DNA from: Psychrobacter urativorans
GTDB lineage: Bacteria > Pseudomonadota > Gammaproteobacteria > Pseudomonadales > Moraxellaceae
Assembly (NCBI RefSeq): GCF_001298525.1
Contig: NZ_CP012711.1
Location: forward strand, 1 to 49,020
Direction: 5' to 3'
Length of the DNA stretch: 49,020 nt
The notes below the pieces were generated by a model that was not told where the DNA came from, made no database searches, and saw only the letters and a program-made list of their open reading frames with translations. How positions within the stretch are numbered: the first letter of the stretch is position 1; each line of letters opens with the position of its first letter. Below are positions 1-48,966 of the stretch, piece by piece. The position numbers were made by a program, and so were the translations under genes.

Positions 1-1137
1 TCAAACTTCAATAGTTGCAGTAAAAAATTAGATTTTCTAGAATCTTTTAGTCTGATAAATGCAACAGCTTGATTAATATTAGAATTATCTAGTTTTTTTG
101 GAATAATCGAAGTTCGACCAATCGTTCAAGCAATAGAGAATAAAACGTCATCTTCTCTTACAATAGACCTTTTAAGCGAACCTTCGTGAATACTCTTTGG
201 GATATTCTCCAGTCTTTCTGCTTTAATAAATCCATTATTATCGATATTCATCACTTTCAAAAATGGGATAATTGCTTCGTCTTTGGCTTTGGATAAATCA
301 GCTTTGCTAGGAGTGGTTCCTTTAGTTAGTTTCTCTGATACATCCAATACTTTTGTTATATTCCAACCCTCCAGAATCCAGCCCATTTCTTCCGTAAACT
401 CAAACGCATCAGGGAATAATGCTCGAATGGCGTGATTGTTGGTGTCAGTTTTTGGTATGGCTTGACGTTGTTCGTCACGTGCTGATAATTCGTCAGGTAT
501 GGGATTTCCTGCTGCGAGCGCATTATCAAGCACAGGATCAAAATCCACAAACCAACTTTTAAACAACGCTTGCGCCATCGCTTCTAGTGTCTCGTTCATT
601 TGGCGGTTAAGCTCAATTTTGTCATCTAACGAGCCAAGAATATGGGCAATGGCTTTTTGTTTTGGGAGCGGTGGGATTAGTAATGGAAGCTCTTTGATTG
701 TAGGTATATTTGTATAACCTTGCACTGAACCTGATTTATAGGCTAAATGTATTGCTTTAAATACATCACCTGTAACAACATAATAAAGAAAATCAGAATC
801 CAGAATCTCTATGTCTGGACAAATAATTGCTATAGAGCTAGAAATTCCAAATATATCGCCTTTTTTATATCTATAAGCATTTCCAAATGTACCAATTATA
901 CCTATCAGGATATCTCCATCCCGTGGTCTACGTTGAGCCTTAGATTCAGTTGAAAATAATTTTTCATAATCAGCTTCACTGATATAATCTACCTTATCTA
1001 AGGATAAGTGTACCCACTTTTATATTTTTGGAAGTTAAATATAAAATACCATCTTCTTGACGTTTTACTTTAGAGTGCGCCCCATCTGTGACATGACAAG
1101 TTTCACCAATTGTAAGACTCTTATACTCACTCGCCAT
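1..1137 (-). pseudogene. hsdS: Type I restriction-modification specificity subunit HsdS, broken and interrupted
   Basis: HsdS gives a type I R-M complex its DNA target through two target-recognition domains separated by conserved helices. The frame starts at ATG 1135-1137, overlapping the end of hsdM by 11 bp, and reads MASEYKSLTIGETCHVTDG. A one-base frameshift lies near 1000: the first frame ends in LILR-stop, while the shifted frame continues as DKVDYISEADYEKLF. The central conserved part (LPLLIPPLPKQKAIAHIL, then LNRQMNETLEAMAQALFKSW) lies about 590-700. A TGA at 126-128 then interrupts TRD2; the same frame continues as TIGRTSIIPKKLDNSN down to base 1. If base 1 is joined to base 49020 the frame continues with EEIQNT before meeting the end of an IS3 element. 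The gene therefore has two inactivating mutations plus a lost 3' end. The family call is firm; non-function is inferred from the breaks. Confidence 0.9.
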
Positions 1138-2713
1138 AACCCAACCCCTCCAAATTCTGACGAATCACCGCATCGAGCTGCTCAGACGCTTGCATTTGTG
1201 CGTATAGCGTTTGGCTCAGTTCCGCCATTTTGGTCTCAAACGGGATGCCGTCATCCTCAATCGCCGCTGCGCCCACATAACGCCCCGGTGTCAGCACGTA
1301 GTCATTGGCTTTGATATCAGCAATACTTGCTGATTTGCAATAGCCTGCTTCGTCTTCATAGGCTTCATAACCGCCTGCTTCCGCTTCACCGCGCCATGCG
1401 TGATAAGTGTTGGCAATGCCTGCAATATCATCAACGGACAGCTCTTTATGAGTGCGGCTAATCATACTGCCGATGTTAGGCGCATCAATGAATAACGTCT
1501 CACCGCTACGATTACGCAGTCCACGGGCTTGGCTATGGGCAGAGGTGGCTTGTTTGTCACGGCTGATAAACCATAAGCACACCGGAATTTGAGTGGTATA
1601 AAACAGCTGACCCGGTAGCGCAATCATGCAATCGACGAGGTCGTTTTCGATGATTTGTTGACGGATTTCGCCCTCACCACTGGTGGTCGACATGGAGCCG
1701 TTTGCGAGTACGAAACCAGCAGTCCCGTGTTCGGACAGCTTGGATATCATGTGCAATATCCACGCATAGTTGGCGTTGCCCGTGGGCGGCGTGGTGTAGC
1801 CTGCCCAACGAGGGTCATCGACCAGCTCGTCAGGCGCGCGCCAGTCCTTTTGGTTAAAGGGTGGATTGGCCATGATGAAGTCGGCTTTGAGGGTTTCGTG
1901 TTGGTCTTTTAAAAAGGTATTGGCCGCCACATCGCCCAAATTACTTGAGATACCGCGAATGGCAAGGTTCATCTTCGCCAATTTATAAGTGGTACTGGTG
2001 TACTCTTGCCCATAGATAGACACGTCTTTGGTGTTGCCGTGGTGACTTTCGATAAACTTCACCGACTGCACAAACATACCGCCTGAGCCGCAACAGGGGT
2101 CATAAATCTTACCTTGATAGGGTTCAATCATCTCAGCGATCAGATTGACCACTGATTTTGGCGTGTAGAACTCGCCACCGCCTTTGCCTTCACTTGCCGC
2201 AAATTTACCTAAGAAATATTCATAGACGCGTCCAACAGTGTCTTCCTCAGGATTACCAATGCTATCAATGTTATTGACCACATCAATCAGCGCTGACAAT
2301 TTACTGCTATCTAAGCCCAGACGTGAGAAGTAATTGTCCGGCAATGCGCCTTTTAGGGCTTTATTGGTTTTCTCAATGGTGCTGAGTGCCGTATCAATTT
2401 TTAGGGCAATGTCTTCTTGCTTGGCGTGTTGCTGGATAAAGTCCCAACGGCTGTCCTCTGGCAAATAGAACACATTATCTTTGGTATAAGCGGCGACCAT
2501 GTCGATGTGTTTTTCATGACCCGTGGCAATTAGCTTTTGGCGCTGTGCCTCAAAGGTATCACTGATGAATTTTAGGAAAATTAAGCTGAGGACAATACGC
2601 TTATATTCAGAAGATTCGACACTACCACGCAGCTTATTGGCAGTATACTAAAGGGCTTCTTCAAAGCGCACGTCTTTAGTAGTGTCATTTTTATTGACGG
2701 CAGGTTTTGCCAT
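1127..2713 (-). pseudogene. hsdM: Type I R-M DNA methyltransferase subunit HsdM with an amber codon
   Basis: HsdM is the adenine-N6 methyltransferase subunit of type I R-M systems. The natural start is ATG 2711-2713 (MAKPAVNKNDTTKDVRFEEAL), but codon 22 is TAG (2648-2650), where a Gln codon one base different would fit the family. After it the frame is open for more than 500 codons to TGA 1127-1129. A restart at ATG 2498-2500 would give a 457-aa protein without the N-terminal helical domain. The SAM-binding motif DPCCGSGGMF and the catalytic NPPF tetrapeptide (ADFIMANPPFNQ) are intact. The gene heads a reverse-strand hsdM-hsdS operon, with hsdR next if the window is circular. Only the nonsense codon is abnormal here, so loss in this gene may be recent. 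Amber suppression or reinitiation could leave some activity. Confidence 0.88.
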
Positions 2714-2949: not shown

Positions 2950-3163
2950 AAGTTATCCACAGAAAAAATTGATTTTTTATTAAAAGGTTTTTATTTAATC
3001 GTGTTTAACCTTGTTTACTCTTGTTTAGAGCACTTTTTCCTTTTTAAAATCAAAGGGTTACAAGCCGAGAACACACAAAATGACGCGAGAACACACAAAA
3101 TGACGCGAGAACACACAAAATGACGCGAGAACACACAAAATGACGCGAGAACACACAAAATAT
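2950..3163. other. Plasmid replication origin (DnaA box, AT-rich repeats, iterons)
   Basis: A perfect DnaA-box consensus TTATCCACA lies at 2953-2961. It is followed by an AT-rich stretch with three 10-bp-phased TGTTTA motifs at about 3002-3031, a plausible unwinding region. Five iterons follow (separate entry). This order, next to a Rep_3 initiator gene, is the standard layout of an iteron-controlled theta-replication origin. The role is inferred from layout and family knowledge. Confidence 0.8.
3067..3163 (+). repeat. Iterons: 20-bp tandem direct repeats
   Basis: The 20-bp unit GAGAACACACAAAATGACGC starts at 3067, 3087, 3107, 3127 and 3147. The first four copies are identical and the fifth diverges after its first 15 bases. 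The units are spaced at 20 bp, about two helical turns, as expected for binding sites of the Rep initiator encoded just downstream. Confidence 0.9.
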
Positions 3164-3243: not shown

Positions 3244-4155
3244 ATGGAAAACAATCTGGTCGCTAAATCAAATGATTTAGTAGTCGCTAGCTATGCGTTA
3301 ACTCGTCACGAGCAAAATTTATTATTGGCGTGTGTCAGTCAAATAAACTCGCTACCAGACGCACCGATTGTTTCTATTGAAAGTCGGTTCATCGTTACTG
3401 TTGAACAGATTAAAGGTTTATTTTATCGAGGTTCTACTGAGCGTAATGCTTATAGAGATTTGAAAAAAGCCGCTGACCATCTTTTTGAGAGAGAGGTGAC
3501 GATAAAGTTAGATAATGATGAGACGCTACGCACGCGATTTGTATCTAGTGTTAAATTTCAGCCCAATGATGCACAAGTGACTCTTAGGTTCGCTGAAGAT
3601 ATATTGCCTTATCTAACTCAGCTTAAGAATAATTTCACCCGATACAGACTCGCAGATACGGTAGAGTTAACTAGCGTTTACGCGGTAAGATTGTATGAAA
3701 TGATTGTGTGTTGGCAAGGGCAAAACAGATGGAGTGAAACTTTAGAGTTAGATGATTTTCGATATATGATGGGCGTTGAGGACAAATATCGACAGTTTAG
3801 TAACTTACGTGATCGTGTATTAAATACAGCCGTAGAGCAGATTAACGAAAACACTAATTACAACGTCACCGTTTCCTATCGAAAGGTTAAACGAGAACAT
3901 CGAAGCGTTACGTTTGCATTCTATAAAAAAGGAGCCCTCTTACTAACAGATGATAAGGGCGCATTGTCTTTAGATAAAATCAGACGTATCGTTCGCTCCT
4001 CACAATTCACTGCAGACTATAATGATCACCGCTTATTGTCAGTCGAAGCCAGAGAAAGTAACGAAGCGTTTTGGGCAAGAGCGGAACAACTGATAGCAGA
4101 GCGTCCAAAAGAGTTTTCTAAACGACCATTTGATGATTATTTTAAGTCAAAATAA
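3244..4155 (+). CDS. repB: Plasmid replication initiator, Rep_3 family
   Basis: A 303-aa initiator that binds the upstream iterons and opens the origin. The N-terminus NDLVVASYALTRHEQNLLLA is the hallmark start of Rep_3 (RepA/RepB/RepE-like) proteins, which carry two winged-helix domains; the length is typical. The start ATG 3244 is preceded by GAGAGA. The DnaA box, AT-rich region and iterons directly upstream, and parA downstream, agree with this role. It is the only replication gene in the window, so it should set the replicon type. Expression is probably autoregulated through the iterons. The symbol is generic because this family has inconsistent naming. Confidence 0.9.
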   Translation: MENNLVAKSNDLVVASYALTRHEQNLLLACVSQINSLPDAPIVSIESRFIVTVEQIKGLFYRGSTERNAYRDLKKAADHLFEREVTIKLDNDETLRTRFVSSVKFQPNDAQVTLRFAEDILPYLTQLKNNFTRYRLADTVELTSVYAVRLYEMIVCWQGQNRWSETLELDDFRYMMGVEDKYRQFSNLRDRVLNTAVEQINENTNYNVTVSYRKVKREHRSVTFAFYKKGALLLTDDKGALSLDKIRRIVRSSQFTADYNDHRLLSVEARESNEAFWARAEQLIAERPKEFSKRPFDDYFKSK

Positions 4156-4235
4156 GTAGATATTATCATTAGTTAGTTTGTAATTTTATTCACTATGTCA
4201 CTGTTTTTACTTAATAAATGCTATTTTTTACAGTA

Positions 4236-4299
4236 TACTCAAATACTCAAATACTCAAATACTCAAATACTCAAATACTCAAATACTCAAATACTCAAA
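4236..4299 (+). repeat. 8-bp tandem array upstream of parA (candidate centromere and operator)
   Basis: Eight perfect head-to-tail copies of TACTCAAA run from 4236 to 4299, ending 14 bp before the parA ATG. Short tandem 7-8 bp repeats upstream of a ParA gene are typical binding sites for ribbon-helix-helix partition proteins (omega and ParG type), which use them both as centromere and as operator. The matching RHH gene is at 4956. A related but much longer array lies at 45336-45535. Confidence 0.8.
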
Positions 4300-4313: not shown

Positions 4314-4952
4314 ATGAAAGTCATCGCAGTATTGAATCAAAAGGGTGGTAGTGGTAAGACCACTATTGCCACTCAGATTGCCCGTGGTTTGCAATTGCAG
4401 GGACACAGCGTATTACTGGTGGATAGCGATAAGCAGGGCAGTGCGCGCGATTGGCGCGCGGTTGATGAGGATAATCCGGTGCCAGTCATTGGTCTTGATC
4501 GTCCAACGCTAGATAAAGATTTAAAAAGCGTGTCTGATAAAGATTATGTGGTGATTGATGGCTCACCGCAAGCGACTAGCCTTGCTATCTCTGCTATTAA
4601 AGCGGCTGACTTTATATTGATTCCCGTACAACCAAGCCCGTATGATATTTGGGCAACCAGTGATTTGGTAGATTTGGTACAGCAGCGCATTGAAGTAATG
4701 GATGGTCAGTTAAAAGCCGCTTTTGTAGTATCGCGCGCTATTCAAAATACCAATATTGGTAAAGAGGTAGCGACGGCATTACTAGATTACGGTCTACCAG
4801 TTTTGGATACCAGAATCATGCAGCGTGTTGCTTATCCTAACAGCGCTGCCATTGGCAAAACCGTTTTTGATACCGAGTCGCCTAACAGCAATGCAATACA
4901 AGAAATGACGGCATTGGTTAATGAAATTAAAACATTTTTTATTGAGGAGTAG
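4314..4952 (+). CDS. parA: ParA-type partition ATPase
   Basis: A 212-aa Walker-type ATPase of the ParA/MinD family that segregates plasmid copies. The deviant Walker A KGGSGKTT is at residues 10-17, followed by LLVDSDKQGSARDW and then VVIDGSP as Walker B. There is no N-terminal DNA-binding extension, so it is a small (type Ib) ParA that relies on a separate RHH partner for DNA binding and autoregulation. The start ATG 4314 follows the 8-bp array and a weak RBS. It forms an operon with the RHH gene 3 bp downstream. Confidence 0.92.
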   Translation: MKVIAVLNQKGGSGKTTIATQIARGLQLQGHSVLLVDSDKQGSARDWRAVDEDNPVPVIGLDRPTLDKDLKSVSDKDYVVIDGSPQATSLAISAIKAADFILIPVQPSPYDIWATSDLVDLVQQRIEVMDGQLKAAFVVSRAIQNTNIGKEVATALLDYGLPVLDTRIMQRVAYPNSAAIGKTVFDTESPNSNAIQEMTALVNEIKTFFIEE

Positions 4953-4955
4953 GGT

Positions 4956-5165
4956 ATGAGTTTGGCTGCGGGTCGACCGAGTAAGAAAGTAGATAGTGAA
5001 TTGAGCTTATCAGATGTTACCGACCGTCCTACAAAGACCGTGCGGGTGAACTTTAATCTTGATGAAGAGATGTATATTAAGCTGAAAAAGCATGCGCTTG
5101 ATAGTCGTAAAACAGTAACGCAACTGCTTACTGAAATGATCGATGAAAAAGTGATTGAGCGGTAG
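4956..5165 (+). CDS. Ribbon-helix-helix partition protein (ParG-like ParB)
   Basis: A 69-aa protein with a flexible, charged N-terminus (MSLAAGRPSKKVDSE) and a C-terminal ribbon-helix-helix fold: beta strand TKTVRVNFNLD, then helices EEMYIKLKKHALDS and VTQLLTEMIDEKVIE. RHH dimers of this kind bind tandem short repeats and stimulate the ParA ATPase. Its position 3 bp after parA, and the array before parA, point to the DNA-binding member of a type Ib partition system. The RBS GGAGTAGGG lies across the parA end. Function is by analogy; no sequence-specific ParG identity is claimed. Confidence 0.8.
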   Translation: MSLAAGRPSKKVDSELSLSDVTDRPTKTVRVNFNLDEEMYIKLKKHALDSRKTVTQLLTEMIDEKVIER

Positions 5166-12752: not shown

Positions 12753-14813
12753 CTATTTTGAAGAATCGGCTTTTTGCACGATTTGATTTAAAATTTTTGG
12801 TAAAGTCTCAAACATCTGAATGTTATACATTTCATGCCGATGCTGATGATCTATACCCTTTAATCTGATTTCTTGTTGCAAACCATAAGCCCCTATTTTT
12901 TCAGACTTTTGGTTGAATATGCGTGCACCACTAGCCATAACCAATGTGGCGTCACAATTACTTTTGTCTGCATTACATTTAATACTGTCTTGTTTCACTT
13001 CAGTCTTAAGTACCGGCTGTAAACATTCATCTTTTGGAATATAAAAGTTAACTTTCATATCTTTTTTAAACCCAGCATTTTCAGTCATAGCAACGACCGC
13101 ATCTTTCAGTAGGGTCTGTCCTTTAAAGCCTGAACCTGTCGCATAAAACGGTCTTTTCGACTGACTGGTAAAAGCGTGGTAAATCAAAGGACCAAAACCA
13201 TAAAATGGAATTTCACCGACTTGCTCGGTATGTAAGCTTGGACATAAAACACGCGATTGCTTCGAGTCACCCACTGGAGCAGAACTATCAAGCAAAACTC
13301 TGTCTCCAGAACGCACGGGTAAACGATCACTGCTGTTGACAGGGAAATCTAATTGCGCGGTAACTTTCGCACCTTGACGTTCCAAAACAGTCGCTTCCCA
13401 TGTTGGAATCAGAATATTACGTCCTGTTGCCTTATCTGAATGATAAACATGGACTTTCATTCCGGTACTTAAGCGTTCCCCCGCATCATCAATGGTAATG
13501 CGTTGACCACTTGAACTCGAGACTTTTAAATCAGAACGAGTAAATTGAATCCCTTTTTGAAATTGTTGACCTAATTTCAAAAGTGCGTTTTTCAATACAA
13601 CTTCTTTACGTGCCTCTAGAGAAAATCCCATTCCTTCTGAAATCACATCTTTAATATCATCTGTTGCATGTGCTGAGTAGATCACGCGACCAGAACGATC
13701 AATCATTTCACCAAACACTTCACTATGGAGAACTTGTTGCTGAGTTATTTTCCCAATCTGCTGTTGATAAGCAATTACAGGAATGACATTAATCCGAATA
13801 AAAAATTCAGGTAACTCACGTTGATTAATGTCTTCACTTTGCGCTAATACAGTCTGTTCACTAACACTTTGTGCCATAGCACTATAACGTCGATTGACTG
13901 GAGTCAAAGTAAATGAAGCTTGCTCACCTACTGCATCAGAAAAGATTTGCTCAATTAAATCTTTTGATTCGCCTTGATAAGTCAGTACATCAACCACTAA
14001 TGCTTTAGGCTTATTTATAGCCTGACGTGTATTGGTTGATACTTTACTAAAGCGTTTACTACGACCCTGCATCAATATTGGCAGTGCCACAGCATAATCA
14101 CTGTCCGCATGTACCACACGAATCAAATCGCCATCTATTGAACTCAGCTCATCTTGTGCAGCGATCCCTTGCTTAAAGCCTTTATCTAGAACCAAATAAG
14201 ATTTCCACTTATCAATCACTTGGGTCTCAGTTTCAGAAATTTTAAGTTTCGATTTTAATTCTTCAGTCACTTGCTTAGTCAATGTCAACAAAGTACTTTG
14301 AAATTTCTGTTTAATGGCTGTTTTTGTGGTAGGGGAATCAATTTCAGTAGTCAGTACCTGAATCGGTTGCGACAACGTCGCACTGTCACTATAAATGACC
14401 TCGCCCGACAACACGTTAGTGAGTTTTAGACTTAAGGTGACTGGCAGAAAAATTTCTGCTGTCGAATCCTTCTTGACAATGTATTCACTCGCGCGTAAAA
14501 CTTCTAGAGATGCTATATAAGTACGATTTTTAGTTTTTTGCGAAATAGTATCGACAACTTGTTCACCGAAATTTTGTTTTAAACCTTGTACAAAAAATTG
14601 CTCGGCTTGTTTACGAATGATTTCATTGTCAATCGCTTGACTAAAATCACACACAATAGAAGAACCATTCGCTTCATATTTGCTAGGATTGGTACGACAA
14701 CCTTGCTCCAATCCAAAAATACCTTTCGATGGGTAGATTTGAATATTCGCATTTGCCCATGCTGAAACAAGCATCGGCATAGCCAAACATAAGACTTTGA
14801 ATTTTATGTGCAC
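12753..14813 (-). CDS. Large exported protein, CsgG/FlgT-like in places
   Basis: A 686-aa protein with a signal peptide ending at ANA (residues 1-22). The N-terminal third contains EIFLPVTLSLKLTNVLSGEV followed by IYSDSATLS, a strand pattern seen in CsgG-like and FlgT-like periplasmic domains. A later segment, ITIDDAGERLSTGMKVHVYH, resembles the small beta-barrel at the end of FlgT-type proteins. The C-terminal part has several paired Cys (ECLQP, SIKCNADKSNCDATL) suitable for disulfides. The start overlaps the upstream gene by 10 bp, so translation is coupled. The similarity is by eye and weak; no molecular function can be claimed. Confidence 0.7.
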   Translation of the reverse strand: MHIKFKVLCLAMPMLVSAWANANIQIYPSKGIFGLEQGCRTNPSKYEANGSSIVCDFSQAIDNEIIRKQAEQFFVQGLKQNFGEQVVDTISQKTKNRTYIASLEVLRASEYIVKKDSTAEIFLPVTLSLKLTNVLSGEVIYSDSATLSQPIQVLTTEIDSPTTKTAIKQKFQSTLLTLTKQVTEELKSKLKISETETQVIDKWKSYLVLDKGFKQGIAAQDELSSIDGDLIRVVHADSDYAVALPILMQGRSKRFSKVSTNTRQAINKPKALVVDVLTYQGESKDLIEQIFSDAVGEQASFTLTPVNRRYSAMAQSVSEQTVLAQSEDINQRELPEFFIRINVIPVIAYQQQIGKITQQQVLHSEVFGEMIDRSGRVIYSAHATDDIKDVISEGMGFSLEARKEVVLKNALLKLGQQFQKGIQFTRSDLKVSSSSGQRITIDDAGERLSTGMKVHVYHSDKATGRNILIPTWEATVLERQGAKVTAQLDFPVNSSDRLPVRSGDRVLLDSSAPVGDSKQSRVLCPSLHTEQVGEIPFYGFGPLIYHAFTSQSKRPFYATGSGFKGQTLLKDAVVAMTENAGFKKDMKVNFYIPKDECLQPVLKTEVKQDSIKCNADKSNCDATLVMASGARIFNQKSEKIGAYGLQQEIRLKGIDHQHRHEMYNIQMFETLPKILNQIVQKADSSK

Positions 14814-16312
14814 TGTGTACCACCGATGCAGAGTGTGATGGTATTTCCAGCTAGTAATCGCTCAGCACTTGATAACGTTGGGCTTACTTTACGTAGCGCT
14901 TTAGCCAATTCTGCACTAATCGGTTTGTCACTCTTATAGGTCATGGTCATTTCAACCAATTTGCCGTCTTGAGTGCGAATATCGATATTTTCTGCGCCAT
15001 CCATTTCATCTAAAGCAATATACAAATCATCCCCTAGACGTGACGAAACATTACCAGAAACACTTTTCACAAAAACGGTAATCTCTTTACCGTACATCGA
15101 GCGATTTTTTGCATAACCTAAAATCTGTGGTCCAACTTGGCTAACGGCTAATTCACCTAGTTTCTTTGCTACATTAGTACGGCACGAGTCTGTGGTCGCA
15201 CCTGTCGATGATTCTGTACGAGTTTCCCCGCCCATTAAAGTTGAATCATCTACCGAATAAATTTTAAAACTTACCGCACCATCGCAGACAAATTGACCCG
15301 TGGCACTCGAACGACCACGATCATAAATATAAGAGCTACCAGCCATAAACCAGTCCGCTTTTTCTTTACGCGCCGCGATTACTAGCTTATTAAGCTCTAC
15401 ATCACTCATGAGTTGTTGAATTGTCATACTACGACCATTTAAATACTGACTTCTGAAACGGTCAGAATCGAGCAACCGCAAATCATAACGAGATGCAGCA
15501 CTTGCAATTGCATTTAATGTTTGATTATTACGCTCAGCTTTAGTACTTGGTGTTTGATATTCCACATATTTCACAAAACTTTGAATATCATTTTGACTTT
15601 CAGATTGGCTATATTTTGCCGACTCACTGGCATTGTAGCTACTTGAGGATGCTGATTTACCTGAATTATTATGGCTTGCTGAACGAGCTGAAACACCAAC
15701 CCCCGCTCCATAATAATTATCATAGGCATAGCCTGAGGCAGCAGCTGAACGTCCTTTTGTAGAATAAGAATCTGACGCACTGGCTTTGGCACTTTCACTA
15801 GCTTTGTAACTGGCATCTTCATTATAGCTATAGCTACGATCTGCAAAATAAGAAGTAAATTCTTTAACTGGCTTAGCGTTATCTTTTGGTACGCCGAAGT
15901 ATTCATCCATCACAATCATAATCGGACTGGTGCGACCATTTTTCTTTGCCAATCCTAAATCATTAAGAATTGAACGAAATTCTTGGTCATCTATTTCCAG
16001 ACTAACTTGAGTGACTAATTCATTGTTGCTGTTGGTACTACTGCCTCGGTTTAGCACATAATTACTGTCAATTTGTTTGACAATGTCATTTAAATATTGA
16101 CTCGCTTCATTCATCGCCTGCGGACCATTAATACGCTTAATGAGCGCAATGACAGCATCAGTTTTTGCATTGTTGTATGCTTGATTACGTGTGCCATTCA
16201 GATCTTTTTTGATGATAGGTGTAGCACCTTCCCCATGCACTTTAATAATTTCAGCATTACTAACTTGAACAACCCCCAAACACAAAAGTATCAATATAGC
16301 CTTTTTCATCAC
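14804..16312 (-). CDS. Exported protein with Ser/Tyr/Ala-rich low-complexity centre
   Basis: About 502 aa, first gene of a three-gene reverse operon. The frame opens with GTG ATG; with AAGGG upstream, ATG 16307-16309 (MKKAILILLCLGVVQVSNA) is the likelier start and gives a signal peptide cut after NA. Residues about 35-125 (ARNQAYNNAK-like NGTRNQAYNNAKTDAVIALI, then SNNELVTQVSLEID) look like the N-terminal fold of FlgT/LPP20-type periplasmic proteins. Residues about 155-245 are a repetitive Ser/Ala/Tyr stretch (SYSYNEDASYKASESAKASA). The C-terminal half has an ordered domain (ADWFMAGSSYIYDRGRSS) and ends with a Cys pair. The low-complexity centre suggests a surface or polymer-forming role, which is speculation. 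Confidence 0.72.
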   Translation of the reverse strand: MMKKAILILLCLGVVQVSNAEIIKVHGEGATPIIKKDLNGTRNQAYNNAKTDAVIALIKRINGPQAMNEASQYLNDIVKQIDSNYVLNRGSSTNSNNELVTQVSLEIDDQEFRSILNDLGLAKKNGRTSPIMIVMDEYFGVPKDNAKPVKEFTSYFADRSYSYNEDASYKASESAKASASDSYSTKGRSAAASGYAYDNYYGAGVGVSARSASHNNSGKSASSSSYNASESAKYSQSESQNDIQSFVKYVEYQTPSTKAERNNQTLNAIASAASRYDLRLLDSDRFRSQYLNGRSMTIQQLMSDVELNKLVIAARKEKADWFMAGSSYIYDRGRSSATGQFVCDGAVSFKIYSVDDSTLMGGETRTESSTGATTDSCRTNVAKKLGELAVSQVGPQILGYAKNRSMYGKEITVFVKSVSGNVSSRLGDDLYIALDEMDGAENIDIRTQDGKLVEMTMTYKSDKPISAELAKALRKVSPTLSSAERLLAGNTITLCIGGTQCT

Positions 16313-41900: not shown

Positions 41901-42491
41901 ATGACCGTTCGTATTTATGTGAGAGCCAGTACTAAGGATCAGGACGCTACCAGAGCATTAGCGGATTTGGTTACGTTCAGTACACGCTATGGTGAGACCT
42001 ATGTGGATTACGTTGAGCACTTCAGTGGTACAAAGCTCGAAAGACCAGCACTCACTCAGTTACTCAATGACGCTGAGCAAGACGATATCTTATTGGTTGA
42101 AAGCGTGGATAGACTGAGCAGACTATCCCAAGATGATTTTGCCATCCTAAAACAGCGTATTAAAGATAAAGGCTTACGATTGGTGGTGGCTGATCTGCCA
42201 ACCACGCATACGGTGAGTGAGGGTATGACTGGTGATATCCTAAAGGTAATTAACAACATGCTGATCGACTTATTAGCAACGATGGCTAAGTTAGACAACG
42301 ATAAGCGTAGAGAGCGTATTAAGCAGGGATTGGCGAATAGCGGATATAAACCTAGTGGTAAGAAGCCAAACACAGCGAAACACAAGCGTATTAAAGACTT
42401 AGCCCGTCAAAACAATATGACAAAAGATGAGATAGCTAAAGCGGTTAGCGTTGGAGTGGCTACCGTTTATCGGGTGTTAAAACAGGGGTAG
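41901..42491 (+). CDS. Serine recombinase (resolvase/invertase family)
   Basis: A 196-aa protein. The catalytic Ser is residue 10 (IYVRASTKDQD), with the DRLSRLSQDDF motif (about 70-80), the E-helix region ILKVINNMLIDLLATMAKLD, and a C-terminal helix-turn-helix (MTKDEIAKAVSVGVATVYRV). It is complete and likely active. In a plasmid with a par locus such an enzyme most often resolves multimers through a res site next to its gene; a DNA-invertase role is the alternative. RBS GAGGTGGG precedes ATG 41901. Confidence 0.88.
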   Translation: MTVRIYVRASTKDQDATRALADLVTFSTRYGETYVDYVEHFSGTKLERPALTQLLNDAEQDDILLVESVDRLSRLSQDDFAILKQRIKDKGLRLVVADLPTTHTVSEGMTGDILKVINNMLIDLLATMAKLDNDKRRERIKQGLANSGYKPSGKKPNTAKHKRIKDLARQNNMTKDEIAKAVSVGVATVYRVLKQG

Positions 42492-43566: not shown

Positions 43567-44624
43567 CTAATCATTTAGATGTGCAAATAAAAGGGGTTTT
43601 TGTGCTTCTATCAGGTTTAACACAGGTGTCACGCAGGCATCAATTTCTTCGAATAACGTTTGCCAGTAAGCCATAGGTTGGTTTGAAAATGCCTTTTCTA
43701 CTGCTCGCCCTGCTACAATACTTTGTAATGTATTAGGCATTACACCACATTGCCAATGATCTTTAATATAGCCAACTAGATGTAATGTCTTGCATAGTGT
43801 TTGCCATTATTTAAGTTCTAGGGCACCAACAGCCATATAGCGGTCATCTTGAGCCCTATAGATTCGGTAACAGGGTAGTGACTCAGCGGAGATATACTCA
43901 GTGACATTAGATATTGATCATCAATATCCTTAATTGTTTTATCACTATTTTTTGACATAATCATATGATTATACAAATTATGCGTCATACTAATAGATAT
44001 ATGTCGGCCCTTGCCTATATTTTTAGCCGCAAAAACAGCAGCCAATATAGAGAATGCAATGTCGCTACTAACTAATAAGTCTGCAAACAGTACATTAGGC
44101 TGAGCTTGTTCGCCCGAAGTAGTTTTTAACTGAGCAAGCGCTCCACTCATTGCCATAAAATTGATGTCAGATCCTGCTTTCTCAATCCAAGGTCTGGCTA
44201 GAACTTTGAATGCGTCAGAAGTACCGAAGTTAGTAATAGAAACCATTAACAACTTTAGATTAATAGTATTCAAAGTAGTAACATCTAATCCCATATTAAC
44301 AAGTTATCCAGGGATAAAGTCATCTAACATTACATCAACATTTTTTAAACGCTCTTTGATTATGTCAACTCATGCAACAGTACTAAAATTTACTTTCTCA
44401 GAATATATACCATGATTTGAAATATGGAATAACTCACCAAACGTATATGTTGCATCGGCATTTTCTAATTCAATTTTAACAACTTCTGCACCTAATTCAG
44501 TCGATAGGCGTGCAGCGAATGAGCCTGTTAGATTACGAGTAAGATTCACCACTTTGAGCCCTTTTAAGCTGCCTTTGATCGTCGCTACCGTATCATTATT
44601 ACTAAGTTTAGTATTACTGGACAT
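43567..44624 (-). pseudogene. Family III CoA-transferase / alpha-methylacyl-CoA racemase gene, decayed
   Basis: The start at ATG 44624 reads SLKGLKVVNLTRNLTGSFAA and RLSTELGAEVVKIE, the N-terminal pattern of CaiB/AMACR-type enzymes. TGA follows (frame resumes as VDIIKERLKNVDVMLDDFIP), then TAA, then a long stretch (FADLLVSSDIAFSILAAVFA, GKGRHISISMTHNL). A one-base shift near 43870 moves to the frame CYRIYRAQDDRYMAVGALEL, then another TAA and a clean end (QSIVAGRAVEKAFSNQPMAY, PVLNLIEAQKPLLFAHLND) at 43567. Three stops and a frameshift show long decay. Such enzymes move or epimerise acyl-CoAs, including carnitine-CoA. Confidence 0.8.
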
Positions 44625-45335
44625 TCAGAAAAACCTCATACTGTTGTATTATATTAACTAATAAATACGCGAAAATAATAAATAAATTTAGAGTTTTCGA
44701 ATTAGTAAATCCGCCTGGATTTTCATCTATGAACAGATGATTATAGTCTATAGTCAAGCAGCATAAGCATGTAAATCAATGAGTTAGATACATATATCCA
44801 TCAAAAATATTCGGAAATAATTTGGACACCAATCTGGACACCAAAAGGCAATTTTTATTATCAAGAACCCTTATAATACAATGAAATTAGGTATAGTTAT
44901 CCCCAAGGGTACTTTTGAGGGTAATTACACCCTCTTCAATCTTTTCAACATTTATCAGAATTATTTCAACTCTAGAAATCATATATAAATCTTAGAATTA
45001 TAAGATCGGTTCTAAGAAAACAGACTATGATACCTATATTTTTTAACGTTCTCTTAATAATATTAAGCTCGCGGCTCTTGAATGAATAGACTTGTTCGAT
45101 AAAAATTTTTTACAGCGTACGATACGGTATATATCATCTTTTGAGTCTATAAAGCAGCCTTGTGATAATTCTTAATCCGTTAAGATAAGAGACCTAACTC
45201 AAATAAACGACCTCCCATCCATATAGTCGGAGTGGTTGACACGATTGATAATCTTGAATATCTAATACTGACTTATGATAGGACATAAAATATTTCGTTA
45301 CTTTTAAGCAAATGGTTGTAAAATTCTAGCCATCA
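44625..45335. other. AT-rich spacer with IS-end relics
   Basis: No gene is supported. CTATAGTCAAGCAGCATAAG (about 44740) resembles the IS630 left end. ATATAGTCGGAGTGGTTGAC (45221-45240) resembles the right end of the IS3 element (ATATAGTCGGGGCGGTTCA) and looks like a solo relic. A 35-codon frame at 44881-44988 (MKLGIVIPKGTFEGNYTLFN) is too short to support. The doubled phrase TGGACACCAATCTGGACACC lies near 44823. Confidence 0.4.
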
Positions 45336-45535
45336 TTTACTTATTTACTCATTTACTCATTTACTCATTTACTCATTTACTCATTTACTCATTTACTCAT
45401 TTACTCATTTACTCATTTACTCATTTACTCATTTACTCATTTACTCATTTACTCATTTACTCATTTACTCATTTACTCATTTACTCATTTACTCATTTAC
45501 TCATTTACTCATTTACTCATTTACTCATTTACTGA
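45336..45535 (+). repeat. 25-unit, 8-bp tandem array
   Basis: TTTACTCA is repeated head to tail: 23 perfect copies from 45344 to 45527, with one degenerate unit on each side (TTTACTTA at 45336, TTTACTGA at 45528), 200 bp in all. The period equals that of the array before parA (4236-4299), and both share TACTCA in every unit (ACTCATTT here, ACTCAAAT there). It lies 40 bp beyond the 3' end of hsdR and encodes nothing. Confidence 0.9.
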
Positions 45536-45575: not shown

Positions 45576-47674
45576 TCAAACTACCCGATGCTTCTTAAAG
45601 TTCTCCGCCTGCTCGAATATTTCTTTATACACCTCACCACGATCAATGGGCGGATAACCCCACTCATCAAGTAATACCATCAGATCGAACTGGAGCTCAG
45701 CCTTGATATCTTCGCGCTTGTTCCAGTCTGTGTATTTAGCTTTGTCGTCAATCACTTGTTTGACGGCTTTAGACAGCTCTAGCAGCTTGTCTTCAGGATA
45801 AGTGAAGTCGTATTTATGGGCCAGTGACAGCAGAATGTCATAAAATGCTTTTTCCTCAAAGTCGATGCCCATCTCACCGAACGAATCCATTTCAGCCCTC
45901 AGTTCATGGTATAGCTTGATAATTTCATCGGAGAAGTCACCTAGCACATCGTCACGGAGCACATCTTGCTCATCACGCTCATTGTACTTAGCGACTAAAG
46001 CTGTCATTTTTTTAGTGAAGTCGACGCCCTTGACCTTATTGGTCTTCTTTAGCTCACCAATAGCTTTGGCCAAGAGTTGCTGGAGCAGCTCTAGCTTGGT
46101 ATTGGGCTGTTTGATGGCTTCTAGTTTCGCAAGGTAATCATCATCGAATAGGTCAATCTCACCATCGCTGGTTTCGCCCAATTTAAAGATTTCCTCCACC
46201 CCATCACTAATTAATGCCGCTTTGACCAAGTCACGTACCTTTTGGTTCATCTGCTCGACGTCAGGGGCTCCGCCCGTGGTGATTTTAAACAGAATGGTAC
46301 GAATGGCTAGGTAGTAGTGAATACTGTCCTTATGCGCCTGTGTGAGCTCATTACTTCCGACGCAAATGTCATAAGCAGACTTTAGACGCTTTGCTAAGTC
46401 CATAAAGGTTTTTTCTAGTTTCTTACTTTGCAGGGTAAAGTTAGCAGCAGCATTGAGGCAGTGCAGCTGTTCAGTAGGCGTGCCTTTAAAATAGGGGCCG
46501 CTGTCAAAGGTGTGGAACATGGCTCCAAGCAGGCTCAGATGGTCTTTGACCACCACCACTGACTGTCTGATGTCATCAATATCTTGCTCTTGACCGCCCG
46601 TATAGTGCGATAGGGCTTGGTTCATCTGCTTTTTAATACCGATATAATCCACCACTAAGCCGTTCTCTTTGCCCTCAAACTTACGGTTGACCCGTGAGAT
46701 GGTCTGAATCAGGCTGTGCTTTTGTAGCGGCTTGTCGATATACATGGTGTCCAAAAAGGGGACGTCAAAGCCAGTGAGCCACATATCAACGACGATGGCG
46801 ATTTTAAAGTTCGATTGACCATTCTTAAACTGGCAATCGAGCTCTTTGCGGTAGTCCTTGTTGCCCAGCTTATCCCACAAGGCTTTGGGGTCGTCTTGGT
46901 TACGGGTCATGATCATCTTGATCCGTTCCATAGGCTTGACCTTTTTCTGCTCTTGCTCAGATAAGACAGATCCTGTTGCGCAAGCTCTAATTTCATCCCA
47001 TTCAGGACGCAAGGCAATAATCTGTTTATAAAACTGGTAGGCAATGCCGCGACTGCTACACACAAACATGGCTTTGCCTTTTTGGGTGGTGCCCTCAAAG
47101 ATACGTGCCTCATAATGCTCGACAAAGTCTTTGGCAATCGTTTCAATGCGGTCAGGATCGCCTAAGATGGTCGACATACTGGCCATGTCAGTTTTGCTTT
47201 TCTCAATCTGATAATCATTAGCACCAGCATCGCTACTGGCTTGGTAGTATTTCTCTACCTCGTCCAATTGACGACCATCAAGCAAGACTTTGGCAGCGCG
47301 ACCCTCATAAATAATACGGACAGTAATATCATCAAATACCGATTCAGTCATGGTGTAGCTGTCGACCACAGGCCCAAAGACTTTAAGCGTGGCATCGACT
47401 GGTGTTCCGGTAAAACCGACGTAGGTGGCGTTCGGTAAGGAATCATGCAGATATTTGGCAAAGCCGTAGGTTTTTTTCACGCCCTCATCAGTGACGGTGA
47501 TTTTTTGATCGAGGTTGATTTGGCTACGGTGCGCCTCGTCAGAGATACAAATGACGTTGGTACGAGTGGTTAATAACGCCAAGTCTTCGGTGAATTTATG
47601 AATGGTGGTGAGGAATACGCCGCCACTCTTACGCCCTTTCAGCTGTTCTCGCAAATCCGCGCGACTCTCGACAC
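45576..47674 (-). pseudogene. hsdR: Type I restriction endonuclease HsdR, 5' end removed by IS3
   Basis: HsdR is the translocase/nuclease subunit of type I R-M. The remaining frame (about 700 codons) begins at the IS3 end at 47675 with VESRADLREQLKGRKSGGVF, FLTTIHKF, then the DEAH box (VICISDEAHRSQ), VGFTGTP, later VDMWLTGFDVPFLDTMYIDK and LIQTISRVNR (helicase motifs V and VI), and the C-terminal helical part ending FKKHRVV. Missing are the N-terminal PD-(D/E)xK nuclease domain and Walker A, roughly 300 residues by family length. The first possible start in the remnant is TTG 47652. It cannot cut or translocate DNA. Confidence 0.92.
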
Positions 47675-47724: not shown

Positions 47725-48063
47725 ATGAAAACACGAAACTACACTCCTGAGATTAAAGAACGCGCTGTTCGTATGCTGATCGAAGCAGCAAACGACTATC
47801 CCTCCACATGGTCAGCTATTCAAGCCATTGCCCCCTAAGATTGGCTGCACGCCTGAGACCCTGCGATCCTGGCATAAAAAGCACATCGATCAAACTATTC
47901 CTGCCTCAGTGCAAGCGCAAAGTGACAAAGAGCGCATCAAAGAGCTTGAACGCGAGAATAAAGAGCTTGAACGCGAGAATAAAGAGCTTAAGCAAGCTAA
48001 TGAAATCATCAGAAAGGCTGCGGCTTTTTTCGCCCAAGCGGAGCTCGACCTTCCACCCAAGTA
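47725..48063 (+). pseudogene. IS3 OrfA, copy 2, frameshifted
   Basis: ATG 47725 gives MKTRNYTPEIKERAVRMLIE and DYPSTWSAIQAIAP-stop at 47836-47838. One extra base in the CCCCCT run (47831-47836), compared with copy 1, shifts the frame. The rest (KIGCTPETLRSWHKKHIDQT, then a zipper with a duplicated ELERENK heptad) is open from 47828 and ends in TAA just before the orfB ATG. The HTH protein is therefore split; this copy may not transpose by itself although orfB is intact. Confidence 0.8.
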
Positions 48064-48966
48064 ATGATCAGTTTTATTGATGATAACAAAGCTGAGTATG
48101 GGGTCGAGCTGATCTGTAGAGTCCTACCGATTGCCCCGTCAACTTATTATCGTGCTCAAGACTTAAGCGACAACCCACACAAGCGTTCACTGCGCAGTCA
48201 GTATGACGACTTTTACATCGGTGAGATTAAACGTATTTGGCAGGTCAGCAAATGCCGTTACGGTGCGCGTAAAGTCTGGCAGCAGATGAAAGCTGATGGG
48301 TTAAAGGTTGCTCGTTGTACCATAAAGCGTTTAATGAGCCAGCATGGCCTACAAGGCGTTTGGCGCGGCAAAGGCAAGATTACCACCAACAGCCGTGACG
48401 ACCAAAAGCGTGCTGGCGACCTAGTTAACCGCGACTTCACCGCCCATCGCCCTAATCAGCTATGGGTCGCTGATTTTACTTATATCAAGACAACTAGCGG
48501 CTGGGTCTATACCGCCTTTATTATTGATGTGTTTGCTCGCGCTATTGTCGGTTGGAAGGTATCAAAGCGCATGAACACCGATATGGTGATGGCGGCATTA
48601 AACCAAGCAATAGCAGATAGAAACAATCCCAAAGATGTCATTCATCACAGTGATAGAGGGGTTCAGTACTTATCTATTCGCTATACCGATAAGATGACGG
48701 GCTCTGGCGTGATTGCTTCTGTTGGTACAACAGGCGATTCATACGACAATGCATTGGCTGAAACGGTCAATGGGCTTTACAAGTCTGAAGTGATTCATTA
48801 TTTAAAGCAGAACTGGACTGGCATTAACGATGTTGAATTAGCCACGCTTGAGTGGGTGGACTGGTTTAATAAAACCCGTTTGCATAGCACGATTGGTTAT
48901 GTGTCACCCTTTGAGTTTGAAAAGCGGTATTATGATAATTTAAATCTGTCAGGCATCGCTGCCTGA
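48064..48966 (+). CDS. IS3 OrfB transposase (DDE), copy 2
   Basis: A 300-aa intact OrfB: N-terminal region with RYGARKVWQQMKADGLKVAR, then the integrase core with catalytic Asp in LWVADFTYIKT, Asp in HHSDRGVQYLS and Glu in DSYDNALAETVNGLYKSEVI. The end is STIGYVSPFEFEKRYYDN, as usual for the IS3 family. ATG 48064 overlaps the OrfA stop (TAATG). In IS3 elements the active enzyme is an OrfA-OrfB fusion made by ribosomal frameshifting, and a T6 run sits just upstream at about 48025. OrfA is broken here, so a full fusion would lack the HTH. Confidence 0.92.
   Translation: MISFIDDNKAEYGVELICRVLPIAPSTYYRAQDLSDNPHKRSLRSQYDDFYIGEIKRIWQVSKCRYGARKVWQQMKADGLKVARCTIKRLMSQHGLQGVWRGKGKITTNSRDDQKRAGDLVNRDFTAHRPNQLWVADFTYIKTTSGWVYTAFIIDVFARAIVGWKVSKRMNTDMVMAALNQAIADRNNPKDVIHHSDRGVQYLSIRYTDKMTGSGVIASVGTTGDSYDNALAETVNGLYKSEVIHYLKQNWTGINDVELATLEWVDWFNKTRLHSTIGYVSPFEFEKRYYDNLNLSGIAA

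Follow-up and report, generated by a model that had tools for sequence, protein, structure and literature searches.

Organization of the plasmid

The window analysed here is the whole stretch of 49,020 nucleotides from contig NZ_CP012711.1 of Psychrobacter urativorans (assembly GCF_001298525.1, forward strand), which resembles Psychrobacter plasmids of the Rep3 plus ParA/ParG kind. The features referred to below are the following:

126..725, minus strand: fragment of hsdS (Methylase_S)
1127..2500, minus strand: hsdM, N6 methylase
3066..3161, plus strand: 20-bp repeat in 4.8 copies upstream of rep, probable iterons unrelated to the arrays, as judged from Tandem Repeats Finder (TRF) and position
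3244..4155, plus strand: rep, replication initiator of the Rep3 family (Pfam Rep3_N/Rep3_C)
4236..4299, plus strand: parA-proximal array, 8 units of TACTCAAA, putative parS and operator
4314..4952, plus strand: parA, 212 aa, ParF-type Walker ATPase (Pfam AAA_31/CbiA)
4956..5165, plus strand: parG, 69 aa, predicted ribbon-helix-helix (RHH) centromere-binding protein, putative partner of both arrays
41901..42491, plus strand: serine recombinase, 196 aa, with homologues near many other arrays of the TACTCA family
45336..45535, plus strand: parA-distal array of 25 octamers (23 exact copies of TTTACTCA), putative ParG-binding supernumerary centromere
45576..47654, minus strand: hsdR, type I restriction subunit of which the C-terminal part (692 aa) is present
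47808..48966, plus strand: transposase genes of the IS3 type, next to the truncated hsdR (Pfam rve, HTH_21)

As judged from gene order and similarity, the partition system of the plasmid is probably of type Ib, with a TP228-like ParA/ParG pair; binding of ParG to the arrays and stabilisation of the plasmid are putative. ParA is a small ParF-type protein without an N-terminal HTH domain, its 212 residues matching from residue 1, and its best solved relative in the PDB is ParF (4dzz; E 4.2e-24, residues 1-206). The parG gene starts 3 bp past the end of parA, and its product matches the Pfam family ParG with an E value of 7e-4 and 20.1 bits, just below the cut-off of 21.4. Among 17 aligned ParG relatives, 16 match PF09274 at E values up to 1, the best at 2.7e-5, and the match to ParG 1p94 has an E value of 0.29 with the single sequence and of 0.006 with a profile. 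The parA-proximal array directly precedes the ATG of parA at 4314 and is recorded by TRF at 4235-4299 with a period of 8, 8.1 copies and 100% matches; written as boxes, it consists of ACTC plus AAAT eight times over, which fits short boxes with AT-rich spacers beside parA.

The hsdR gene lacks its N-terminal part, as compared with the 3213-bp gene of plasmid pA53P4, and adjoins the IS3-type element, whose first frame (47808-48080) shows no Pfam match and was assigned to the element by position. This frame contains a mismatch-free repeat of a 21-bp unit in 2.4 copies (47939-47989). Because the type I restriction genes span the two ends of the contig, a circular molecule is inferred, and the annotation suggests the order distal array, hsdR, IS3, hsdS, hsdM, iterons, rep, proximal array, parA and parG around the circle. 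Elsewhere in the window, matches to CoA-transferase family III occur in two separate minus-strand open reading frames (43818-44624), apparently representing a broken gene, and two large adjoining minus-strand frames of 686 and 502 aa without a Pfam match occupy positions 12753-16312.

Sequence and surroundings of the distal array

The initial annotation of this DNA had described a 200-bp array of 25 octamers, 23 of them perfect, with degenerate edges, and this description was reproduced by a unit split of the window and by TRF. Positions 45336-45535 consist of exactly 25 octamers, namely TTTACTTA, 23 copies of TTTACTCA and TTTACTGA, and TRF reports an array at 45333-45533 with a period of 8, 25.1 copies, 98% matches and zero indels. 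The period and the TACTCA core that had been noted as common to the parA array agree as well, and the difference of two adjacent bases between the array types was located in the spacer, outside the core. Both arrays follow one scheme, consisting of a TACTCA core plus a 2-bp spacer, which is AA in the proximal and TT in the distal array when written in one register. The distal array holds about three quarters of the arrayed units of the plasmid (25/33).

Outside the two arrays, the window contains 27 single TACTCA sites, where a first-order Markov model predicts 23.8, and no two TACTCA sites at 8-bp spacing; the chance-level occurrence of single sites and the absence of such pairs indicate that the arrays are not an effect of base composition. 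The exact three-unit pattern of TTTACTCA occurs only at the distal array in the genome of the organism (2.93 Mb in six contigs, the window lying on the sixth). Since reversing TTTACTCA yields a rotated form of the same unit, a reversed-sequence control has no value here.

A 40-bp gap separates the distal array from the 3' end of hsdR; on its opposite side, no clear gene is seen over roughly 700 bp. A coding role was rejected, since none of the listed open reading frames of at least 50 aa (start codons ATG, GTG and TTG) extends into the array. The 711-bp left flank gave zero matches elsewhere in the window, and among the fetched loci it matched only the window's own copies; a search around the array for an inverted repeat comparable to the 142-bp repeats of pP62BP1 yielded no more than a single weak pair of 21 nt. 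The idea that the array is framed by a repeated flank or by inverted repeats was therefore rejected. A minus-strand transcript of the array is not predicted to fold (z +3.05), and no terminator-like site was seen in a site scan of the array. An operator or terminator role was rejected on the basis of gene geometry, RNA folding and the site scans.

Occurrence of the arrays in the genus

A census with an array pattern, which matches about once per array, yielded 79 places in 52 of 105 Psychrobacter genomes; since the pattern requires ACTC, the conservation of the core in this census is partly given by construction. Five places without TACTCA (G023:C5, G073, G075, G085:C20 and G103) were dropped, leaving 74 arrays in 49 genomes. 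One array found with another pattern (G022:C30) stands outside the co-occurrence counts, and a threshold of three units adds further short arrays, e.g. on G013:C2, G055:C2 and G065:C2. ParA was found in 43 of the 105 genomes at an E value of 1e-60 or better and ParG in 44, one of these being a fragment. TACTCA arrays are present in 38 of the 43 genomes with ParA and in 11 of the 62 others (Fisher p 2e-13, a value which ignores kinship). Forty-seven of the 74 arrays share their contig with parA, 10 of them as proximal and 37 as distal arrays, and a distal array occurs on 31 of the 43 parA contigs. The 11 array-bearing genomes without ParA gave no match even at E 1e-8 with the same query that matched 43 genomes, and two plasmid-like array contigs of ParA-less genomes (G052:C2 and G076:C2) contain no clear ParG (best E 0.03). 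In a family sample of 249 genomes (91 from this genus and 158 from others), arrays of at least three units were found in 53; outside the genus they occur in only 6 of the 158, all of one other genus, two of them inside large contigs (G153 and G175).

The bias of the census pattern toward ACTC was removed by a motif-free TRF scan of the window and 18 public Psychrobacter parA plasmids (646,686 bp in total), the latter representing 19 Psychrobacter records with a matching par region minus NZ_CP022042.2, which is equal in length to the retained plasmid of P. cryohalolentis K5. All 37 period-8 arrays found (37/37) share the core TACT[C/T]A, although the 19 plasmids are partly non-independent, four being near-identical over the array regions and pWB2 and pVan23-1 likewise. 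By unit, 20 of these arrays consist of TACTCAAA, 7 of TACTTATA, 5 of TACTCATA, 4 of TACTCATT and 1 of TACTCATC. The array of the window belongs to this family, sharing core and period with the parA-proximal arrays associated with the same ParA family. A period-9 array with 16.6 copies of TACTCAAAA was found in addition on pPsych006 (NZ_CP060391.1, 30887-31032). Four period-7 arrays and a second period-9 array, also detected by TRF, are unrelated in sequence. In a further locus (L145), an 8-bp array runs on in 9-bp units past position 4067. With a 9-bp period, as in these two cases, any ParG bound along the array would be phased differently around the helix.

Seventeen of the 37 period-8 arrays are proximal and 20 distal. 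A distal one is present on 16 of the 19 plasmids, or on 17 if the period-9 array of pPsych006 is counted, and its absence from three plasmids indicates that a distal array is dispensable. Since 13 of the 20 distal arrays lie on the parA strand, the orientation looks free. The median copy number by TRF is 10.2 for proximal and 8.5 for distal arrays, and distal copies exceed proximal ones in 7 of the 14 plasmids carrying both, with a Spearman coefficient of -0.06 between proximal and total distal units.

Related arrays and turnover of their units

Close relatives of the window's ParA and ParG are encoded by plasmid pA53P4 (NZ_MN657118.1) and by Psychrobacter GP33, and both also have a second array at hsdR. 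On pA53P4, which carries four arrays in total, a proximal TACTCAAA array is accompanied by a TTTACTCA array of 27.4 copies (92% matches by TRF) that adjoins the 3' end of an hsdR gene of full length. In GP33 a proximal array is accompanied by a short TTTACTCA array, next to an hsdR of which a 3' remnant is left. The window and GP33 can be aligned from the array end into hsdR over 475 bp with 76% identity, and in both of them the array has been retained beside an incomplete hsdR. GP33 contains a short third array of TACTCATA (G065:C2:55908-55936), and a run of short TTGCTTA-type tandem repeats lies near its TTTACTCA array (about 3640-3695 of locus L065).

The TTTACTCA unit also occurs next to parA. 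In Acinetobacter baretiae and A. boissieri, arrays of 19 and 7 boxes of this unit, respectively, separate a rep-like gene from parA, and the ParA proteins of the two species are 72-73% identical to that of the window. In these two species the arrays flank parA-parG, a second array following past parG (L073, 6746-6925, spacer AAAC, 23 boxes; L074, 1004-1095, spacer AAAT, 12 boxes). In pA36P2 and plasmid 1 of P. cryohalolentis K5, units of the TTTACTCA, TACTCAAA and TACTTATA types are mixed in both orientations in the region before parA. Another Psychrobacter clade, comprising pWB2, pA17P4 and others, has proximal arrays of almost pure TACTTATA; here the proximal core is TACTTA versus TACTCA in the distal arrays, which counts against a role of the distal arrays as extra centromeres.

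The ribbon of RHH proteins is the part that reads the DNA. The residues R-V-N-F of the predicted ParG ribbon are kept in 23 of 24 ParGs and V-R-V-N-F in 19 of 24, and those keeping R-V-N-F include ParGs from plasmids whose proximal arrays consist of TACTCAAA, of TACTTATA or of TTTACTCA. The sole exception stems from Moraxella osloensis, whose plasmid is without such an array. A lock between spacer type and ParG was rejected, since distal arrays with AA, TT, TA and TC spacers all occur on plasmids whose proximal array is of the AA type.

The initial annotation had taken the homogeneity of the array as a sign of recent expansion or active maintenance, and for the relatives this is supported by different unit numbers between 100% identical flanks. 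The distal arrays of pA13P4, pA19P4, pA52P6 and pA18BP3 contain 4, 8, 4 and 9 copies, respectively, between flanks that are identical over 388-500 bp, and pWB2 and pVan23-1, again with identical flanks, differ in their distal (34 versus 19 copies) as well as in their proximal arrays (16.5 versus 23.5). The type of unit changes as well: an array of pP32BP2 (spacer TC) and the hsdR array of pA53P4 (spacer TT) have a common 114-bp flank with 82% identity, and they probably represent one array by descent in which all units have been replaced and the core has been kept. Two single arrays consist of two homogeneous blocks with the spacers CA and then TA (L198, 1-148, with 9 + 9 spacers, and L157, 3961-4012, with 3 + 3), looking as if one unit type were replacing another. 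The left and right flanks of the arrays in general form a few paired clusters, with some reshuffling.

The position relative to genes was called for 60 arrays, of which 7 overlapping an open reading frame of at least 90 aa and 15 without a neighbour on one side were not counted. Among the 38 de-duplicated arrays with both neighbours and no such overlap, 6 have an outward-reading start no more than 120 bp away, namely 5 at parA and the distal array of pA36P2, 90 bp before an open reading frame. Only 1 of the 33 countable non-parA arrays is thus promoter-proximal.

Recombinase modules and arrays on large contigs

A homologue of the serine recombinase is encoded in 42 of 67 array loci (a raw count over array loci only), and 33 of the 67 contain a member of a 527-aa family, one member of which is Fic by Pfam. 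In G022:C49 (L152, a whole contig of 3516 bp) and in G053:C1 (L181, arrays at 771678 and 774935), the genes for Fic and a serine recombinase lie between two direct TACTCAAA arrays. The segment between the arrays spans 3.2-3.3 kb in both cases and may be an array-bounded module that moves by recombination between arrays. In the window, the recombinase lies 2.8 kb from the distal array and on the opposite side compared with these modules.

TACTCA arrays were also seen on very large contigs (G002:C1:2210891, G020:C1:1423018, G027:C1:1143578 and G013:C2:1656122), three of which exceed 1.4 Mb, G013:C2 reaching past 1.65 Mb. G002 and G020 have no ParA match, and on a chromosome-sized contig of G053 an array lies beside an apparently integrated par locus. 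The arrays on large contigs are possible relics of integrated plasmids or decoys. Taken together, the recombinase and Fic neighbours, the partly reshuffled flanks, the array-bearing genomes without ParA, the array contigs without a clear ParG and those of chromosome size favour a mobile origin of the arrays and leave room for relics and decoys.

Discussion

The distal array probably serves the resident type Ib ParA/ParG pair as an extra centromere located away from parA, a reading based on sequence comparison to which we assign a probability of about two thirds. For its two components, binding of ParG to the 25-unit array appears highly probable, and centromere activity of the array is rated as likely. 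In the proposed mechanism, ParG dimers would coat the 25 octamers via the TACTCA core at approximately one dimer per 8-bp unit, hardly reading the two spacer bases, and nucleoid-bound ParA would capture the coated distal array as it does the 8-unit array at parA, with a presumed gain in plasmid stability. Because ParB proteins of the RHH type do not spread from their sites, a bigger partition complex could be built only from more units, provided either by a longer array or by a new array elsewhere. By analogy with pSM19035, an array of 25 units should be a strong ParG scaffold. The proximal array would also be the operator of the par genes, and the distal one would act as a cargo handle with little regulatory role.

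This assignment is suggested by the use of TTTACTCA as the parA-proximal unit in Acinetobacter and its admixture to the proximal regions of pA36P2 and the K5 plasmid, and by the conservation of R-V-N-F across plasmids with different proximal units. The co-occurrence of arrays and ParA, the single core of the period-8 arrays, the position mostly away from promoters, the concerted change of units and the persistence of arrays beside an incomplete hsdR point in the same direction. Points against it are the array-bearing genomes without ParA, the recombinase neighbours, the split between TACTTA and TACTCA cores, the period-9 array, the three plasmids devoid of a distal array and the score of the window's ParG below the Pfam cut-off.

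The arrays might instead have been spread by recombination modules containing serine recombinase, Fic or restriction genes, or by recombination between arrays, the distal copies being functionless. The frequent recombinase homologues and members of the 527-aa family, the two Fic-recombinase segments enclosed by direct arrays and the arrays in 11 genomes without ParA would be expected from such a history, but the arrays track ParA across genomes, their units were replaced in concert with retention of the core, those of the window and GP33 are homogeneous although the neighbouring hsdR is incomplete, and the window's recombinase is neither adjacent nor on the side seen in the modules. We consider this unlikely. 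Still less credit is given to the idea that ParG on the distal array mainly buffers the free protein, tuning par expression or excluding related plasmids. The excess of distal over proximal units in the window (25 versus 8) and in half of the plasmids carrying both could reflect such a buffer, and the arrays on the chromosome-sized contigs of G002, G027 and G013 could be decoys; however, the distal sites have the same architecture as the proximal centromere, and a tuned buffer might track its operator, whereas over 14 plasmids the number of proximal units shows no correlation with the total of distal ones.

The initial annotation had left two options, a second, larger centromere for the same ParA/RHH pair and the centromere of a lost or foreign partition system. 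The former gains good support from the comparisons given above, and the latter has become very improbable: TTTACTCA is indeed the proximal unit type in Acinetobacter, but tblastn searches with the window's Rep, ParA and ParG revealed no par or rep relic or further copy near the array, the second array at hsdR recurs in GP33 and pA53P4 together with similar ParA/ParG proteins, and TTTACTCA units are also part of a proximal region within Psychrobacter (pA36P2). We give almost no weight to the idea that the array, with ParG bound, acts as an operator of a neighbouring gene or blocks its transcription, for which the pA36P2 array upstream of an open reading frame would be the example, as this array is the single promoter-proximal case outside parA, the window's array is bordered by the 3' end of hsdR and a stretch without a clear gene, and it shows neither a folded minus-strand transcript nor a terminator-like site. 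A neutral microsatellite produced by slippage, with no binding protein, would explain the variation of unit numbers between identical flanks, but one core in all 37 period-8 arrays is unexpected from random octamers, which makes this reading equally far-fetched.

Returning to the distal array as an additional centromere, the data suggest that spare centromere-like arrays are a regular and quickly resizing feature of Psychrobacter ParA/ParG plasmids. As a tentative extension, which we regard as possible but somewhat doubtful, homogeneous arrays of ParG sites might be gained, lost and resized (from about 3 to 34 units) anywhere on the replicon, on recombinase modules and on chromosomes, so that partition strength or the rivalry of replicons for ParG would evolve by array copy number and not by protein change. 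If so, dispersed arrays would be the substitute of RHH systems for spreading. Annotations limited to the repeats in front of parA can overlook many candidate centromere sites on such plasmids, which is also relevant for the construction of vectors for cold-active bacteria.

Comparison with known systems

According to the available passages of PMC3346939 (2012), plasmid pP62BP1 of Psychrobacter DAB_AL62B carries an 8-bp AATACTCA array before parA as its putative parS and separate TTTACTCA repeats, eight as reported, in an intergenic region, for which binding of ParB was left open; plasmid 1 of P. cryohalolentis K5 is described there as having 12 AATACTCA repeats away from parA, and the organisation before parA was considered unique to pP62BP1. 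The same layout before parA is found in the window and is common among the ParA/ParG plasmids of the genus. The second array differs in size, with eight reported units in pP62BP1 (4.4 copies by TRF in the record) versus 25 in the window. For pP32BP2, the proximal array is given as parS (PMC6579772, available part), and distal arrays are not mentioned in the available parts of PMC6514802, PMC10779009 and PMC10457243. Among the matches listed, a scope outside of which most subscription papers fall, PMC3346939 and PMC6579772 are the only papers on arrays of these units, and none of the matches reports a rule for the whole genus, the link of the arrays to ParA, their common core, or the concerted change and numerical turnover of units. 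As far as these sources extend, one second TTTACTCA array is thus already known (PMC3346939), and the genus-wide regularity and the unit turnover are new.

In phage-plasmid N15, several centromere sites are distributed over one replicon, and they consist of inverted repeats recognised by an HTH-type SopB. The Psychrobacter plasmids share the dispersal of sites with N15 and differ in combining an RHH protein with arrays of octamers. The tetramer of the TP228 centromere is ACTC with 4-bp spacers, and its boxes lie beside parFG. The type Ib system parFGH of TP228 consists of a ParF-like ATPase and a small RHH protein encoded just downstream, and its centromere is built from tetramer boxes with AT-rich spacers, the boxes being described as degenerate (PMC7308502, available passages). 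The window likewise encodes a ParF-like ATPase, with a gene for a small, predicted RHH protein just downstream, and contains boxes with AT-rich spacers; unlike the degenerate boxes of TP228, these are exact and occur in large, homogeneous and dispersed arrays.

The delta/omega/parS system of pSM19035 comprises six sites of 7-10 heptads of the sequence WATCACW, which overlap promoters (PMC9499535 and PMC4498918, available parts); one RHH dimer binds per 7-bp repeat without spreading, and at least four contiguous repeats are required for full activation of the ParA ATPase (PMC9499535, available part). Common to both systems are contiguous short repeats for an RHH-type ParB at several places of the plasmid, the binding being putative in the case of the window. 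The units of the window are octamers of the type TACTCATT and not WATCACW heptads, the distal arrays lie mostly off promoters, and the range of about 3 to 34 units is much wider than the 7-10 heptads of pSM19035. According to the authors of PMC9499535 (available text), how many parS sites stability requires has yet to be established. The arrays described here bear on how a non-spreading RHH partition system builds a big enough partition complex, and the Psychrobacter plasmids represent a natural dose series, which includes near-identical plasmids differing in array length.
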